Source: a filamentous cyanobacterium ESFC-1 (GTDB lineage Bacteria > Cyanobacteriota > Cyanobacteriia > Cyanobacteriales > Spirulinaceae). From it: 64,000 nt of DNA. The DNA is taken from positions 4,825,186 to 4,889,185 of the forward strand of contig KB904821.1 in the NCBI GenBank assembly GCA_000380225.1, written 5' to 3'. The first letter of the stretch is position 1; every line of letters starts with the position of its first letter. The notes beneath the pieces are model-generated. The model saw nothing but the letters and a program-made list of their open reading frames with translations, made no database searches and was not told where the DNA came from. The translations under genes and the position numbers were made by a program. Below, in pieces: positions 25,364-64,000 of this stretch.

Positions 25364-25527
25364 ACTCATTCTTCCTAAAAAACTCACCGAAGCTTAAACT
25401 GTCGGTAAACAACCTCGCGCCTATTGCGCCCTTGGCTTTCAGTAGCCCTGGAGTTATCGTACAAGACAACAACTCGCCCGCCTCTAGGCTGGCTTACCAC
25501 GATGAAGGATTAGTGTAGCGTATTTTT
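25364..25527. other. Unexplained GC-rich spacer
   Basis: A segment at about 25390-25515 (CCTCGCGCCTATTGCGCCCT, CCCGCCTCTAGGCTGGCTTA) differs from the AT-rich spacers around it and contains short inverted repeats (CGCGCC-TATT-GCGCC, GCCTCTAGGC). It may be a small RNA or an IS remnant. No confident family. Plus-strand codons run on from the glycosyltransferase in another frame without a recognisable domain. Confidence 0.35.
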
Positions 25528-25558
25528 AAAAGTAAGGGGCATCGAACCCCTTACTTTT
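25528..25558. terminator. Strong hairpin terminator between convergent genes
   Basis: AAAAGTAAGGGG pairs perfectly with CCCCTTACTTTT around CATCGAA. The A/T-flanked symmetric stem can serve both the glycosyltransferase (plus) and the phosphodiesterase-like gene (minus). Confidence 0.85.
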
Positions 25559-25646
25559 AACTTCTATCCCTCCTCGCCCTAAAAGGGCAAGGACAACTCG
25601 CAAGATTTTCCGGTGAGTTTTCTTCTTGAGCAAGGTTGAGCGCTAA

Positions 25647-46965: not shown

Positions 46966-46998
46966 AGAACCCCGGTTTTTTGGAAAAACCGGGGTTCT
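46966..46998. terminator. Bidirectional terminator
   Basis: AGAACCCCGGTTTTT pairs with AAAAACCGGGGTTCT around TGG. It lies between the TnpB element and the convergent O-antigen-ligase-like gene, 27 bp from the latter's stop. Confidence 0.88.
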
Positions 46999-60100: not shown

Positions 60101-60820
60101 CCAGGGAATACTCGGATCAATTGCTTGTAAAGAAACAGGCTGTTTGGCTAAATGGCAATGAACCCACTCCATCGCATCTTTTGCGGTGAAGGGGAGTCGA
60201 TTGGTAAATAATTGATAAAGGGTGACACCAAGGGCATAAAAGTCCGTTCGATCGTCAATTTCGCGGTTAATGCGTTGGGTTTGTTCGGGAGAAATATAAG
60301 CTAAATTGCCTTCAAGATAGGGGGGTGATGTTAGTCTAGGTTGCTTATTTATACCTTTTTGCCAACGGGCAATTTCAAAATCAATAATTTTTAATTGTTG
60401 CGTTTCAGGGGCATAAATAATATTTTTGGGACTAACATTTTGGTGAATTAAACCAACTTTGTGAACTTGAGCCAAGCTTTGGGCTATACCCATCGCGATC
60501 GCGACTTTCTCTAATAGCGAAAACTCTCGTTCCTGTAACCACTGTTCTAAACTTTTGCCCCCAATATCTTCTAAAACTAAAACAACCGTATTTTGATAAA
60601 AATGTAGATCGTAAGCTTCAATAATCCCCGTTTGATGGAGAGACGAGAGTAAATTATATTCCTTTTCATAAGAATTAATTTCAACCGGAGTCGGGTAGTC
60701 CCGATTTAACCCCTTCAGAATCACCTTAACGCGATCGCTCTCTCTTTCCCCGCGATAAACCACGGTGCGATCGTTACTATAAATACAGTCAAAAATCCGA
60801 TATCCCGGAATCGCTATCAT
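54149..60820 (-). CDS. Giant Ser/Thr kinase-like/hybrid histidine kinase
   Basis: A 2223-residue signalling protein of the HstK type. Domains in order: Ser/Thr kinase-like (8-270), AAA/STAND ATPase with ISGYSGVGKTQLVNSF (about 300-600), helical TPR-like region (600-1320), GAF (about 1340-1490), two PAS (about 1510-1750), HisKA with RMSHELRTPLNAILGFSQLL (His near 1763), HATPase (LINLLGNAIKFTEVG, VTDTGPGI, GTGLGLSLS) and REC (RILVADDSASNRQFL, Asp near 2060). In the N-terminal kinase the catalytic loop is His126-Gln-Asn128 instead of HRD, and DFG reads DFE. Lys36 and Asn133 are kept. So it is probably a pseudokinase head on an active histidine kinase. Confidence 0.93.
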   Translation of the reverse strand: MIAIPGYRIFDCIYSNDRTVVYRGERESDRVKVILKGLNRDYPTPVEINSYEKEYNLLSSLHQTGIIEAYDLHFYQNTVVLVLEDIGGKSLEQWLQEREFSLLEKVAIAMGIAQSLAQVHKVGLIHQNVSPKNIIYAPETQQLKIIDFEIARWQKGINKQPRLTSPPYLEGNLAYISPEQTQRINREIDDRTDFYALGVTLYQLFTNRLPFTAKDAMEWVHCHLAKQPVSLQAIDPSIPWVLSKIVLKLMAKNPEDRYQKAVSLQTDLERCYQQLQTQGKISDFSLEQEIRRDRVEFSQQLYEREKELETLQTAFTKVTSGSCQLILISGYSGVGKTQLVNSFLSSITNSKIYRATGKFEQYKQKIPYSALRQALNHLVDKLLAESETNLQQWRQKLLDVLKPNTAVLIELVPKLELILGTQPAAIDLPPAEAQNRLVWVFQNFIEVFAQPEHPLIFFLDDLQWADVPTLQLIATLTHQNQNTSLLIIGAYRDNEMNEDCSEYQVLKALNQNAATTHISLKTLNRVTLCQLIQDTLDCATGAAAELAAAVYHKTQGNPFFVKEFLRSLYDRGDLVFETRQSGQNQWQWDLEAIKTSQIAHNVLQLTLSNLENLSSQAQTILKIAASLGTTFSLDLVALAMNQPPQTLEADFADLGRAHLIIPRLESQTASDYQFSHDRIQQAAYCLMTDAEKPRLHRQLGRILQQHYPNRLFEIVYHLNCSLAGNASEAERLVILQCNYQAGQQAQAQAAYESALIYYRQACNLLTPADWPDRYPLALNSHLAVSEAATLSGHFEEVTKGLQPIFQYAETELDRLAAVQIQIRAAIAQSHLQDAIAIALAALENLGVTFPHPITPEALETALAQTARHIQAQSYRELLERPRQPDTQHLVILELLANICAAAYLAQPELFPFTVLKMVNLSIAYGNAPLSPFAYAAYGLILCGVTGEIDRGYEIGQFALELAQKLNAQAILARTLFAIKNQIDVWKVHLRQSLPALKDCYHIGVENGDFEFAGYAAMYHCAYLLCVGEPLDRVREKIDYFKEELCKINQTFAQNWLDLCAQVVLNLTSEDIADPTDLIHGEIYTPSHLAALEAANVQTGLFFFHLNQLIYNYWFDRTEAALESSEIAATYLEAMTGSALVAVYYWYDALVRLRKYPQASPPEQANLMARIAQSRQKLQHWATHAPMNYQHKLDLIVAESHRVLGEPHEAAEAYDRALTESKNNQYLHESALICELTARFYREIGKMIIAKAYFQESQYYYQRWGAVNKVRDLEQQFNRFFIQDLEKTTPKPQKQQNQQNLDLNTVLKASQALSSEIVLDKLLVKLLEIAVENAGAQIGYLIICQDDDLIAAARSRSDRENSVPCWLSLATLSNLELPKTIIHYVARCQETLVLQDGEIADNFAQDVYWQTFQPPSIFCTPIIDRGRLVGILYLENRLMAGAFSRDRLEVLQLLMSQAAISLENAQLYRNLEQAKQQLEAQVIDRTEQLQTSESRYRAIVEDQTELICRFRADGTLTFVNAIYCRSLQQSPENLLGRSFFPFLSGRDRQILIENLRQLTPENPLCSNEQAITINNRPRWYQWINRAIFDAAGNPIEYQAVGRDITERKRIEQELQKSQKRYELATQAAKSGVWEWKLEGDEFYIDPNIKAILGYSDAEIPNDLEVWSQYIHPEDRQNVFDLAIAHVEGKIPALICEHRMFHKDGSIRWILARGQAFRAENQQVVRLIGTDLDITAQKQVEQELQKAKEAADAANQAKSQFLNRMSHELRTPLNAILGFSQLLQNEISPQQNLVHAEYLGIINRSGEHLLSLIDDVLDMAKIETGKMTVNPTPVDLHHLLDAVVDLFQLKAAAKQLTLKATRSPQLPRYVLVDAQKLRQILINLLGNAIKFTEVGSVELIAGVQAQDNNPTVLDFRVTDTGPGINAADLAILFSPFEQTELGRQKQSGTGLGLSLSRQFARLMGGGLQATSVVNRGTTFYCFLPVVPTQESAIARRGDRGKIISIAAPRTPYRILVADDSASNRQFLLRCLQQVGFVVREARNGFEALEVWQTWHPHLICMDLQMNELDGYQATQSIRNQEQNTSKHRPPTQIIAISASLQEQEHQKLLAYGFDDFLSKPFRLEVIFEQLAQHLGISYIYESSSKSATASSVPVSGLTPEALTVMPPAWIERLNQAARRLDDEQCQALFTEIPTQHQNLKQTLEGLLAQFRFDVIMRLTAPDSPE

Positions 60821-61022
60821 GAGCTATCGTCCTGTCAACCAATCCCCTCAAGTTTACGTTATCATTCTCCTTGATTGATGGGACGCGATCGCTACATTTA
60901 TTATCAATGAGTTACATCCCCCACTCCTCTCGAACTTACCCTCAGCCCAAGGTGCTGACATTGTTTCTGAAATAAAATTCGGGTGTCCTGGGTAGGTACA
61001 AATAACAAATAACAAATGACGC

Positions 61023-61050
61023 GAAAGCCCCATCCGTTGAGGATGGGGAT
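61023..61050. terminator. CCCCATCC hairpin (terminator or IS-end relic)
   Basis: GCCCCATCC-GTTGA-GGATGGGG, 7 bp behind the stop of the DUF1517 gene on the minus strand. The layout also resembles right ends of TnpB elements, so it may be a relic that now works as a terminator. Confidence 0.55.
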
Positions 61051-61054
61051 AATC

Positions 61055-62143
61055 TTACAACTGCATCATCTCGGTATATTCCGTCAGCATTTCGTCATAG
61101 GTTAACGCCTCTGGTTTTTGTTGCGGAGTCCACAAAAGATAGAACGTCATCAAATAATCTGAACGCAAAGATGCCATCGTTTCTAAAGCCGTTTTTACCT
61201 CATCGTGGGAACGTACCGTGTCAAATAACGGCTGATCGTCTGCACTTCCTAACAGCAGCGTCACAACGATATGTAAACCAGAGTTATCTTCATCCGGTTT
61301 CGCGATCGCCCTGGTTTGCAAGTCTCCCCCGACATTAACCAGAGTTTCTTGACTAAATTTACTACGTTCTTGGAACTGTAGCTTATTAAATTTAGTTTCT
61401 GCGTCGGCAATATTGCAAGCTTCCGAACTTGAAGCCCCATGAGTCCAGTATTCCTCATGACGCAGCAGGGTTAATGCCGATTCTTGCAGCAGTTGAACCA
61501 AGCCCTCGTCGCTGTCGGTGTCTGCGTTGCGACTAATTTGAGAGAGTTCCGTTTGCAAGTTGTCCGCCGGGGCAATGAGGGCGACTTGTAGCTTGGATAT
61601 GGTCACAATATCATTATCTCGTTCTCGCGCCGCCGCCGCCACAGCCCCACTGCCTTCCCCTGACATTTTCATGAATTTATAGACGAACGCAAATATCGCC
61701 AGACCGAGTAAACCAAAGATAAATAAACCCACTGCTAAATTTATCCAGGGATTGCCCCCAGAACTACTCGTACCGTAGCTAGAACCGCGATTGTCGGGAA
61801 CAACAATCACCGAATTGCCACCAGAGTTGTTGCGACGACGATAACTGTCGTTGTTGGATGGGCTGGTATTGCGAGAGGGGCTGGTATTGCGAGAGGGGCT
61901 GGTGTTGCGAGAGGGGCTGGTATTGCGAGAAGGGCTGGTATTGCGAGAACCACTCGGAGGAGACGAACGTTTTTTGAACGAACCCCCTCCACTGCGGCCA
62001 CCACTTTTTCTCGCGTGGGCTTCGCTATCAAGGGTTAACCATTGGCCCTGTTGCGGGGTGAATTGTTTCACCTCAACGGTGTTAATTGCTGCGAAAGATA
62101 ATGCAGTTGCAAGTAAAAGATGATATTTGATTTTGGGTAACAT
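61055..62143 (-). CDS. DUF1517 membrane protein with RNTSPS repeats
   Basis: 362 residues: an N-terminal hydrophobic helix or signal (YHLLLATALSFAAINTVEV), a low-complexity basic linker with five RNTSPS hexapeptides from 18-bp tandem repeats (near residues 68-95), then a membrane helix (PWINLAVGLFIFGLLGLAIF) and a soluble DUF1517 domain of about 185 residues (VTISKLQVALIAPADNLQTE, LLRHEEYWTHGASSSE). DUF1517 is widespread in cyanobacteria and plastids with unknown function; the topology suggests a thylakoid or plasma membrane anchor. The repeat number may vary between strains. Confidence 0.85.
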   Translation of the reverse strand: MLPKIKYHLLLATALSFAAINTVEVKQFTPQQGQWLTLDSEAHARKSGGRSGGGSFKKRSSPPSGSRNTSPSRNTSPSRNTSPSRNTSPSRNTSPSNNDSYRRRNNSGGNSVIVVPDNRGSSYGTSSSGGNPWINLAVGLFIFGLLGLAIFAFVYKFMKMSGEGSGAVAAAARERDNDIVTISKLQVALIAPADNLQTELSQISRNADTDSDEGLVQLLQESALTLLRHEEYWTHGASSSEACNIADAETKFNKLQFQERSKFSQETLVNVGGDLQTRAIAKPDEDNSGLHIVVTLLLGSADDQPLFDTVRSHDEVKTALETMASLRSDYLMTFYLLWTPQQKPEALTYDEMLTEYTEMMQL

Positions 62144-62307
62144 AACTTTAAATTTGGGGTTGAAGTTTCAGGGGGTTTAGTGTTGAACCCATCCTGTACA
62201 GTTCCCCGATTATCGTTTTTTCTACCCTAACCTTTGAGTCAAACTCTGTCGAATCATATTCTGAGTTCAAAACCCTAGTTTTTGGCAAAAATTGGCAGTT
62301 TTCACGC

Positions 62308-62395
62308 CAGTAGGGTGGGTTAGGCGGCTAAAACTCATGCTATGACTGCAATCTAGCTCTCCGCCGTAACCCACCGTTTAAGATGTGTCGCAGCA
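62308..62395 (-). mobile_element. MITE-like element type A, copy 5 (partial)
   Basis: AGTAGGGTGGGTTAGGCGGC, then CCGCCGTAACCCACCGTTTA and AGATGTGTCGCAGC. The outer end is lost at the left. It lies in the 453-bp spacer between the DUF1517 gene and the next gene. Confidence 0.7.
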
Positions 62396-62470
62396 CAACT
62401 CTTCCCCCTCTCAATTCGGCAGAGATTGGACGGGGAAACCCTGCCCCTACGCGAAAAATTTTGTCAGGCA

Positions 62471-62600
62471 GTAGTGGCGCGACACACCTTAAATTGTGCG
62501 ATCGCCAAAACCTAAAATGCCTACATTTCGGTGCGTTACGCTTCGCGCTTCGTCACCCTATCCAAAGCCTCATTTTAGCTGTGTCGCGGCACGACACTAC
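62471..62600 (+). mobile_element. MITE-like element type B, copy 2
   Basis: 130 bp bounded by GTAGTGGCGCGACACA and, inverted, GTAGTGTCGTGCC-GCGACACA. The core contains TTTCGGTGCGTTACGC, shared (inverted) with 45341-45470. Its right edge supplies the TAG stop codon of the neighbouring coiled-coil gene. Confidence 0.8.
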
Positions 62601-63099
62601 TCTAAATAGTCCGTTTCCTCGTCACTTCCTTCTAGAATCAAAGTGTCCGAAATCGGATCGCTCGGCAAAGAATCATCCAGGATGGGGGAATCGTGGTCGG
62701 GAATAATCTCAAACGTCTCATCGTGAGGATTACTCGGACGATCTACCACCAAAAACCGTTGGGAATTAGTCTCGACTAATCCTACCGTTTGTTGAGCCGC
62801 GATCGCCTCTAGAATCTGCATACTTTGGGGCGACTCATCCACAAATTCTTCAGTAGACTGAAGATCGACAACCGCCTGAGCAAGGGCCGCCACTTGCTTG
62901 CTCAGGCGATCGACTTTCCCTCTAATGCCTCGAAACGCTCGCTGGTGATGTTTTCCTCTTGTAACGTCAAAAACTCCCGTAAAATCTCATTGAGGGCAAG
63001 GGAATCTTTGGTAATCCCCTGACGGCGTTTCCAGACTTCAAACTTGGCGTATAACTCCGGTAAAATATAGCCCTGAACCTTTGGACGTTGGGTTCCCAT
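62597..63099 (-). CDS. Ribbon-helix-helix/coiled-coil protein across a -1 frameshift
   Basis: The zero frame (62902-63099, 65 residues from MGTQRPKVQG; a TTG start lies at 63129) reads GYILPELYAKFEVWKRRQGI and ALNEILREFLTLQEEN, a CopG/RHH-like DNA-binding fold, then RFEALEGKSIA and a stop. Shifted by -1 at GGGAAAG, the same text goes on as EGK-VDRLSKQVAALAQAVVDL, a smooth coiled-coil heptad run, then an acidic tail to 62597. Together about 167 residues. Either a programmed frameshift or a broken gene. Its stop codon lies inside the MITE at 62471-62600, so the natural tail may be longer elsewhere. A GTG at 62893 is an unlikely separate start. Confidence 0.65.
62873..62920 (-). promoter_or_regulatory. 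Candidate -1 programmed frameshift signal
   Basis: Slippery heptamer G-GGA-AAG (62920-62914) in the correct X-XXY-YYZ phase, a 5-nt spacer, then a perfect 12-bp stem CGCCTGAGCAAG/CTTGCTCAGGCG with a 12-nt loop (62908-62873). The zero-frame TGA lies inside the stem. Confidence 0.5.
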
Positions 63100-63340
63100 A
63101 AGCACAAACTCTGAGTAATTCACTTTCAAATTACTGCTCTTGAGGGTCTCAGTCTGGAAATTTCCCTAAAAAGCGATCGCGAGTTAGAGCAACCGCCTGA
63201 GCAGTTAGGACAATAAATCTCTGCCTAAAAAATAAGCCCCTCTCCCGTGGGAAAGGGGTTGGGGTGAGGGCTAACAGCAAAAACGCCCTAACTATTGGTG
63301 TTTACTGCTACGATCGACCCAGAAATCTCACCCCAGACAA

Positions 63341-63850
63341 CTAGATATCCGTCTCACTCAACTCGCGAGTTATATGGTCAAACGGGCCATCAACAAAACT
63401 GGTATCTTCAATCCCTGACTCCATCGCCAGAATCTTGATTCCCTCTTTCATAATCTGAATCCCGCGTACCGTTGGTGCAATGGGAACACCCAAGGAATTG
63501 TAAGTTTCCCGCAATCCCTGTAACACTCGTTCGTCTAAAACATCATTATCCGCCGCCACCAAAGCATAACTGGCGTAGCGCAGATAATAATCCATATCTC
63601 GCAAACAAGCCGAATAACGCCGAGTGGTGTAAGCATTTCCCCCCGGACGCAGCAATTCGGGAACATCCTCAAATAACTGGGTTCCCGCCGTTTTGACAAT
63701 GGCCGCCGCATTGGCCGTAATCATTGTCGCCACCCTCACTCGGTTATTCCCCGACTCAAAATAAGCCTTGAGGTCATCCATGGCGTTGCGGTCTAGATAA
63801 CGACCTGCAACATCGTAGTTTCTAATTAAGCTTGTAATCGCGTCTTTCAT
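63341..63850 (-). CDS. apcF: Allophycocyanin beta-18 subunit
   Basis: A 169-residue phycobiliprotein of the phycobilisome core, where the beta-18 subunit replaces ApcB next to the core-membrane linker. It starts MKDAITSLIRNYDVAGRYLD, which separates ApcF from ApcB (SVINSSDVQGKYLD). The phycocyanobilin attachment Cys82 lies in RRYSACLRDMDYYLRYASYA, and Asn72 (PGGNAYTT) is the residue methylated in beta subunits. GLRETYNSLGVPIAPTVRGI is typical. The C-terminus (ILAMESGIEDTSFVDGPF...) is several residues unlike those I recall. No other apc gene is nearby, as is usual for apcF. Confidence 0.95.
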   Translation of the reverse strand: MKDAITSLIRNYDVAGRYLDRNAMDDLKAYFESGNNRVRVATMITANAAAIVKTAGTQLFEDVPELLRPGGNAYTTRRYSACLRDMDYYLRYASYALVAADNDVLDERVLQGLRETYNSLGVPIAPTVRGIQIMKEGIKILAMESGIEDTSFVDGPFDHITRELSETDI

Positions 63851-64000
63851 AAATAAATAGCGCTCTCAAACAACAACTGTTTGTGGACTAGGTTTTCGTG
63901 TTTGAAGCCCTAGCAATAGCTTTCCTCAACCATCATCCCATAACCCTCGCTCAATCGCCCTTGAATCTTAAAAAGCAACCTCGCGATCGCGCCTTTTTTG
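63851..64000 (-). promoter_or_regulatory. Upstream region of apcF
   Basis: 150 bp to the window edge without an open frame or repeat array; it holds the apcF promoter. One HIP1-type GCGATCGC lies near 63983. No specific light-responsive motif could be assigned. Confidence 0.35.

Follow-up and report, generated by a model that had tools for sequence, protein, structure and literature searches.

A 64,000-nt stretch of the filamentous cyanobacterium ESFC-1 (contig KB904821.1, positions 4,825,186 to 4,889,185; hereafter the window) holds a small gene whose reading frame is broken in two. We asked whether ribosomes cross this break by programmed -1 frameshifting, or whether it is a mutation or sequencing error in an otherwise ordinary gene. 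An earlier note, made from the letters of the window, had preferred the programmed reading. It described a slippery heptamer whose phase matches the zero frame and, after 5 nt of spacer, a hairpin of 12 bp with a loop of 12 nt; the zero-frame stop falls inside this hairpin. We confirmed these elements (coordinates in Table 1), together with its reading of the frames: the zero frame closes after EGKSIA, and the -1 frame stays open beyond it, giving a predicted read-through product of 167 aa. The full zero-frame sequence is MGTQRPKVQGYILPELYAKFEVWKRRQGITKDSLALNEILREFLTLQEENITSERFEALEGKSIA, ending at 62902 on the minus strand; an alternative TTG start at 63129 would yield a zero-frame product of 75 aa. 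The hairpin is a perfect inverted repeat, and its stem grows to 16 bp if G-U pairs are allowed, in which case it starts 1 nt past the heptamer. The source genome comprises 5.63 Mb in 3 contigs, and both its relatives and the ORFs of the window, such as one at 63341-63850 that we take to be ApcF-like, mark it as cyanobacterial.

Table 1. Features of the putative frameshift site in the window (positions counted from the first letter of the window).
Feature	Position	Strand	Details
Zero-frame ORF	62902..63099	minus	ATG at 63099, TGA 62904-62902; 65 aa, MGTQ...EALEGKSIA
Slippery heptamer	62914..62920	minus	G_GGA_AAG, in phase with the zero frame
Spacer	62909..62913	minus	5 nt, heptamer to perfect stem
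Putative stimulatory hairpin	62873..62908	minus	5' arm 62908-62897, loop 62896-62885, 3' arm 62884-62873
Zero-frame stop TGA	62902..62904	minus	within the 5' arm of the hairpin
-1 frame	62597..62920	minus	coiled coil GKVDRLSKQVAALAQ... and acidic tail; stop at 62599-62597

We considered how far such a site could arise by chance. Heptamers of the general slippery form occur 556 times per strand in the 64-kb window, in any phase, and because they are this common the heptamer alone is weak evidence; the case is carried by the hairpin and its conservation, and little by the heptamer itself. Perfect stems of at least 12 bp with a loop of 3-20 nt were found at three places in the window, the site hairpin being the third longest. 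A 91-nt region at the site folds at -37.4 kcal/mol (z -3.56), and 1 of 200 shuffles was equally good. The hairpin arm occurs at four places in the genome, two of which are the hairpin itself, and is thus no genomic repeat. An Rfam search of positions 60800-64000 gave no match.

The N-terminal domain and coiled coil belong to a large family, detected by protein profile in 76 of 388 genomes of the order. Our readings of homologues cover part of the places returned by two such profile searches. Among the first 29 homologue loci examined (L014-L043 minus L018), 28 continue past the junction in a single frame, one of these (L031) being open as far as its contig end. The exception, L021, comes from Symploca sp. 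SIO2C1, a member of a different family, and is 42% identical to the window protein; its zero frame ends in LRGKLSA, with an in-phase GGGAAAG, and GKVERLSEAVSALSQA follows in the -1 frame. The second search, in which 21 loci were read and several had been picked for short open frames, added L065 (zero frame ending ALEGK, -1 frame GKVDCLSQTILELREA) and L070 (LLMGKLMP, -1 frame GKINALSEKLEAFTQ). All three come from other families than the window's and were found by protein profile, with the RNA signal unused in the search. Each requires a -1 shift at the identical Gly-Lys codons and has GGGAAAG or GGGAAAA and a hairpin in the equal position. The earlier note had proposed just this comparison, expecting a programmed site to keep heptamer and hairpin in the same place, and in these independently found homologues they are there. 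A model search of 50 further homologue loci (most of them also read, two with an internal stop) left 48 without a match at E<=1, which supports programming over an indel; L074 matched at chance level, and the other match, L049, is a variant needing the same shift with A_AAG alone ahead of its hairpin. In 12 other genomes of the window's own family no convincing orthologue was found (best other E 0.054). The window copy is therefore known from a single genome, and it could be decaying.

We then compared the four query-family sequences (the window, L021, L065 and L070) in an ungapped MAFFT alignment that was not fitted to structure. Spacer, stem and loop lengths are common to all four; L070 has the heptamer GGGAAAA, the other three GGGAAAG. 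The differing arm sequences GCCTGAGCAAG, GCCTCTCTCAG and GCCCTGAGTGAA each lie opposite their own complement, the last with one mismatch; L021 has 9 of 12 positions paired in the alignment register, and its best fold contains a bulge. Overall 91.7% of cells are paired and 8 of the 12 pairs show changes on both sides. None of 500 shuffles reached any of the five covariation measures, and slid controls were 27-48% paired. A 30-locus alignment, which was fitted to the model, had compensatory changes at 9 of 12 pairs, again with 0 of 500 shuffles as good. Codon-position bias across the four sequences is weak (0.643/0.5/0.698), with 58 synonymous and 298 nonsynonymous differences.

To map how widely the arrangement recurs, we built a covariance model from the four sequences and applied it to 388 genomes of the order. 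It returned 45 places, 15 of which had no locus and lie outside the translation-based count. Besides the window's, 29 loci were read: 20 full cases, 2 variants, 6 matches without the coding arrangement (L105, L106, L107, L111, L114 and L117), and L096, a further case, its genome (G170) having the cassette by pattern. The total is 22 of 388 genomes with the window's included, two of them (with L095 and L115) having short zero frames. A second model, applied at class level to 388 genomes, returned 51 places, 21 of them outside our reading. Here the 29 loci read besides the window's gave 17 positives, defined by heptamer, stop and -1 continuation (and including L150, which has no 3' arm), 1 variant, and 11 matches without the coding arrangement (L146, L157, L158, L160 and L162-L168), for a total of 18 of 388 genomes, again counting the window's. 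Both model searches used strict filters, so these genome counts are minima.

A plain pattern (heptamer, spacing and GCCTGAG...CTCAGGC) was also run over one genome per species, 84,980 species and 257 Gb in all. It hit 22 places, 21 of them cyanobacterial (Microcoleus, Tychonema, Kamptonema, Lyngbya, Rhizonema, Symploca, Hydrococcus, Oscillatoriales and other cyanobacteria). At each of the 21 an open zero frame leads up to the heptamer in its phase and closes just after it, and the -1 frame continues for 22-225 aa; at one (L136) both frames are short (34 and 22 aa). The remaining place, L132 in a Calditrichaeota MAG, has a 13-aa zero frame and a -1 frame that reads as a ferredoxin-like protein, and we took it as chance. 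A similar pattern in 291 genomes gave 19 places in 12 genomes in the forward orientation and 0 when reversed. Judged by its sequence, the cassette recurs among cyanobacteria and is built and conserved like a programmed -1 frameshift signal. Microcoleus-type genomes (genus g10, e.g., L090 and L094) hold up to three copies each (G209, G280).

Searches of other kinds were negative. A stricter pattern had 0 matches in viral contigs, a phage tblastn gave no match, and a first contig scan with the fused protein gave no confirmed match. Several candidates were set aside: two viral matches (L044 and L045) are unrelated, L083 and L084 are different proteins, and L080 (G071) encodes a LRGKVESLSQQV coiled coil with its own ATG behind a purine-rich stretch.

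We merged 43 loci (40 plus L177, L178 and L180) into 41 distinct cases, dropping L135 and L177 as duplicates. Many of the 41 are close relatives, 18 having one common -1 tail, and most were partly selected by heptamer or signal through the model or pattern; the protein-found L021, L065, L070, L178 and L180 were not. The heptamer is in phase in all 41 (GGGAAAA in 22, GGGAAAG in 19), and the zero-frame stop falls at +9 nt after it in 29, +12 nt in 7 and +0 in 5, with no other position. All 38 distinct downstream 60-mers fold into a stem, which mostly starts at +6 or +7; the median z is -3.0 (weakest -1.0), against -1.15 for 40 upstream control stretches; most of these 60-mers were found by the model and were thereby selected for a stem. 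In the Microcoleus-type genes, differences per -1-frame codon position are 0.212/0.162/0.377. Third positions vary most, and selection for the -1 frame shows in this pattern.

We clustered the N-terminal parts (zero-frame proteins minus the last 20 residues where long enough, BLAST E 1e-4) and obtained 12 clusters, which may still include distant relatives of one another. Four of them have a single member each, whose zero frame is short or incomplete (L095, 17 codons; L115, 34; L145, 39; L130, 50), leaving 8 solid clusters. The -1 parts fall into 13 clusters, and the two sets cross: three solid N-terminal clusters share one -1 tail (..PADLLNQLKARRKKSKADLADMEAVLEIL), and five -1 clusters occur within the N-terminal cluster to which the window gene belongs (window, L021, L086, L087, L147 and L151). 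In one family (L148, L152, L153, L154, L156, L159 and L161) most members carry A-[LA]-W...PPASIP in the -1 part; this same group has a CPxC motif, perhaps a zinc ribbon, with a weak DZR match in L148.

Relatives with an unbroken frame allowed us to ask what the putative shift joins. The window's read-through protein aligns with seven single-frame homologues over residues 6-80, a span that includes the junction (residue 62), with an E of 1.1e-10 compared with 3.8e-6 for the zero frame alone. Single-frame relatives also exist for two further cassette proteins. A plasmid of Oscillatoria nigro-viridis PCC 7112 encodes a single-frame YWYGYRK protein that has kept GGGAAAG over an eroded stem (weak model match, 16.6 bits), and another PCC 7112 plasmid encodes, in a single frame, an RHH-like N-terminus with the tail that Microcoleus joins by shift. 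Within the YWYGYRK family the cassette is present in L178 and L180, both found by protein search; the L180 heptamer is accompanied by a largely different yet fully paired 10-bp stem. L179 (2504-2992), from Nostoc HK-01 and a relative of L109, has GGGAAAG and a TGA at +9 but no hairpin, no model match, and a -1 frame that does not go on as a coiled coil, and the shift looks lost there. As far as the reading frames tell, signal and predicted need for a shift go together across relatives, with gains and losses.

Five variants stand outside the 41: L110 (GGAAAAG), L116 (no clear heptamer), L155 (A_AAA_AAA), L049 (A_AAG only) and L150 (heptamer and frames kept, 3' arm absent). The hairpin and stop of L049 lie at 734-768 on the minus strand, in the same genome as L021, and make it a natural weak-site variant; its -1 frame encodes a C-terminal domain resembling other family members. 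At 127-984, L181 is a single-frame homologue retaining GGGAAAG at the site, where it is no longer needed.

We consider it very probable that the site is a programmed -1 ribosomal frameshift signal. In the mechanism we propose, ribosomes would read the N-terminal domain in the zero frame until GGA occupies the P site and AAG the A site, where they would be held by the hairpin starting about 5-6 nt downstream. A fraction would slip one base back (GGA to GGG, AAG to AAA) and read through the hairpin into the coiled coil and tail, and the remaining ribosomes would terminate at the TGA in the 5' arm. The gene would yield two proteins in a set ratio, one short and of DNA-binding type, the other longer, with the same N-terminus and an oligomerising tail. 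The sequences show how the site is built, that it is conserved, that its stem covaries and that the reading frame is under selection; we infer slippage, its efficiency and the roles of both products, the short form possibly being a regulator or a mixed-oligomer partner of the long form. In the portions of the literature cited here, G_GGA_AAG is described as highly shift-prone in E. coli (PMC5009743), and stimulatory structures generally begin 5-8 nt downstream (PMC4066793), a range within which the window's perfect stem, after 5 nt, falls.

The most direct competitor is that an ordinary gene has suffered a single-base indel or been misread in sequencing, and that the heptamer is the leftover of a one-base contraction in a short run. 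Most homologues do read uninterrupted, the window copy is known from one genome, and dropping one base from a Gly-Lys codon pair would be expected to yield such a heptamer. However, the identical break at identical codons recurs in diverged, separately assembled homologues and in other proteins, the signal is absent from the 48 homologue loci noted above, and an indel leaves the covarying hairpin unexplained. We regard this explanation as very unlikely, and for the cassette as a whole it is hardly tenable. Translational coupling, in which ribosomes would stop at the zero-frame TGA and re-initiate in the -1 frame to make two separate proteins, is very unlikely. Three plasmid records do annotate two adjacent or overlapping CDS, and a GTG or TTG lies 27 nt past the heptamer start in some cases, the window included, but in 14 of the 41 cases the -1 frame lacks any ATG, GTG or TTG between its upstream stop and 60 nt past the heptamer, and single-frame relatives have both halves joined.

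Restoration of the frame in the mRNA by transcriptional slippage, a known alternative described for A runs >7 in the portion of PMC3711429 cited, seems extremely improbable: the runs here are just GGGAAA or GGGAAAA, a shortness that speaks against slippage of the transcript, and the X_XXY_YYZ phase and conserved, spaced hairpin fit the ribosome. We give as slight a chance to the idea that the hairpin serves a DNA or RNA role (recombination site, terminator or antisense RNA), with the frame break only incidental to it. Terminators can take the form of perfect inverted repeats, and the opposite strand of the hairpin also gives a match to the second model (22.3 bits versus 53.4); against this stand the constant distance of the hairpin to an in-phase heptamer and stop, the lack of an Rfam match in the region searched, and an arm that is not a genomic repeat.

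Returning to the gene that would be recoded, we looked for the identity of its two parts. The window protein had no match in Pfam, NCBIfam or PHROG. A fold prediction for the zero-frame product was of low confidence (pLDDT 65), with helices at 14-27 and 35-46, and a PDB fold search gave no informative match. A ribbon-helix-helix (RHH) identity is plausible for the window's own N-terminal domain, the label resting on other cassette genes. In L152 the domain matches Pfam RHH_1 at 21.3 bits (cut-off 20.5); other cassette N-termini have sub-threshold matches to Arc, HicB, RelB or RHH_1, and PHROG matches to Arc-like or CopG-like repressors. The N-termini of L087, L112, L137, L151, L177, L124 and L021 had no RHH match in the Pfam and PHROG comparisons. 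Ten -1 products compared with Pfam matched no transposase family.

To our knowledge, only a short list of bacterial -1 frameshifting cases outside transposases and phages is known. The closest likeness is to IS3/IS911-type signals, in which a heptamer and stem-loop let a DNA-binding upstream ORF be produced either by itself or joined to a -1 ORF (PMC5009743, PMC4066793, in the parts cited). The upstream product of insertion sequences can by itself act as a regulator, according to the same part of PMC5009743. The cassette differs in its heptamer, G_GGA_AAR, and in its -1 part, where a coiled coil is followed by a variable tail and no transposase domain was found in the ten products. In dnaX, as outlined in part of PMC3711429, a heptamer and downstream hairpin likewise set a two-product ratio, but frameshifting in E. 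coli dnaX gives the shorter product, whereas in the cassette it would give the longer one. Programmed -1 frameshifting also occurs in the alpha-carboxysome of CO2-fixing bacteria (PMC5009743, same portion). Family searches showed no relation of cassette proteins to carboxysome proteins. The alpha-carboxysome frameshift protein is presumably CsoS2.

The predicted frameshift clusters of GeneTack rest on the same comparative type of evidence (PMC3711429, main text), and that main text does not contain the terms ribbon-helix, Nostoc, Anabaena or GGGAAA. TrcR of Anabaena PCC 7120 is likewise a cyanobacterial RHH regulator, but the part of its description cited here mentions no programmed frameshift (PMC10272220). 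Across titles and abstract starts of the open-access frameshifting and recoding literature, we found no description of the cassette among the matches listed. The class of mechanism is known, and the gene group and the recurrent cassette appear to be new.

Several cassette copies are plasmid-borne or have element genes nearby; others, including the window's, lie amid chromosomal genes. The cassette is present on MOBF plasmids of Tolypothrix PCC 7910 and Aulosira NIES-50, a DUF3854/DUF5906 protein is encoded upstream of a Tychonema copy, and the ATPase after L021 has a weak, below-cut-off CbiA/ParA match. ORFs downstream of the L126 copy are, we assume, XisH/XisI-like. By inspection, without a formal test, no neighbour gene common to the cassette loci was seen.

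These observations lead us to favour, with some reserve, a broader proposal that rests on the solid N-terminal clusters. The cassette may be a phylum-wide module, a G_GGA_AAR heptamer with a GCC-rich hairpin and a G-K-[V/I] sequence heading a coiled coil, which would have been combined with or exchanged among at least 8 different N-terminal domains (several RHH-like and DNA-binding), often on plasmids or integrated elements. It would fix the ratio of a short regulator to a coiled-coil-extended partner, and lineages would switch between frameshifted and single-frame versions. The earlier note was right in the core of its reading, and recurrence in other kinds of protein makes the finding larger than it had stated. 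That the cassette recurs in several regulator-like kinds of gene within a single phylum points to recoding as a routine route there to two forms of a DNA-binding protein, and natural frameshifted and single-frame versions of one protein make the purpose of the shift testable. At cassette genes the three plasmid records carry two neighbouring hypothetical proteins; gene finders split these genes, and the long form is therefore likely to be missing from protein databases.

We noted other repeats in the window. Longer perfect inverted repeats with short loops, perhaps terminators, occur at 46966-46998 (15 bp) and 25526-25560 (14 bp). A 14-nt direct repeat, CAACCGCCTGAGCA, at 62869-62882 in the region of the hairpin 3' arm and at 63190-63203 upstream of the gene may be chance. 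Immediately 3' of the gene, a 24-nt inverted repeat (62471-62494 and 62572-62595) is 83% complementary with its arms 77 nt apart. Finally, five 50-nt copies at 18-nt spacing (61845-61966) lie within a 362-aa ORF on the minus strand (61055-62143) and encode a repeated SPSRNT.
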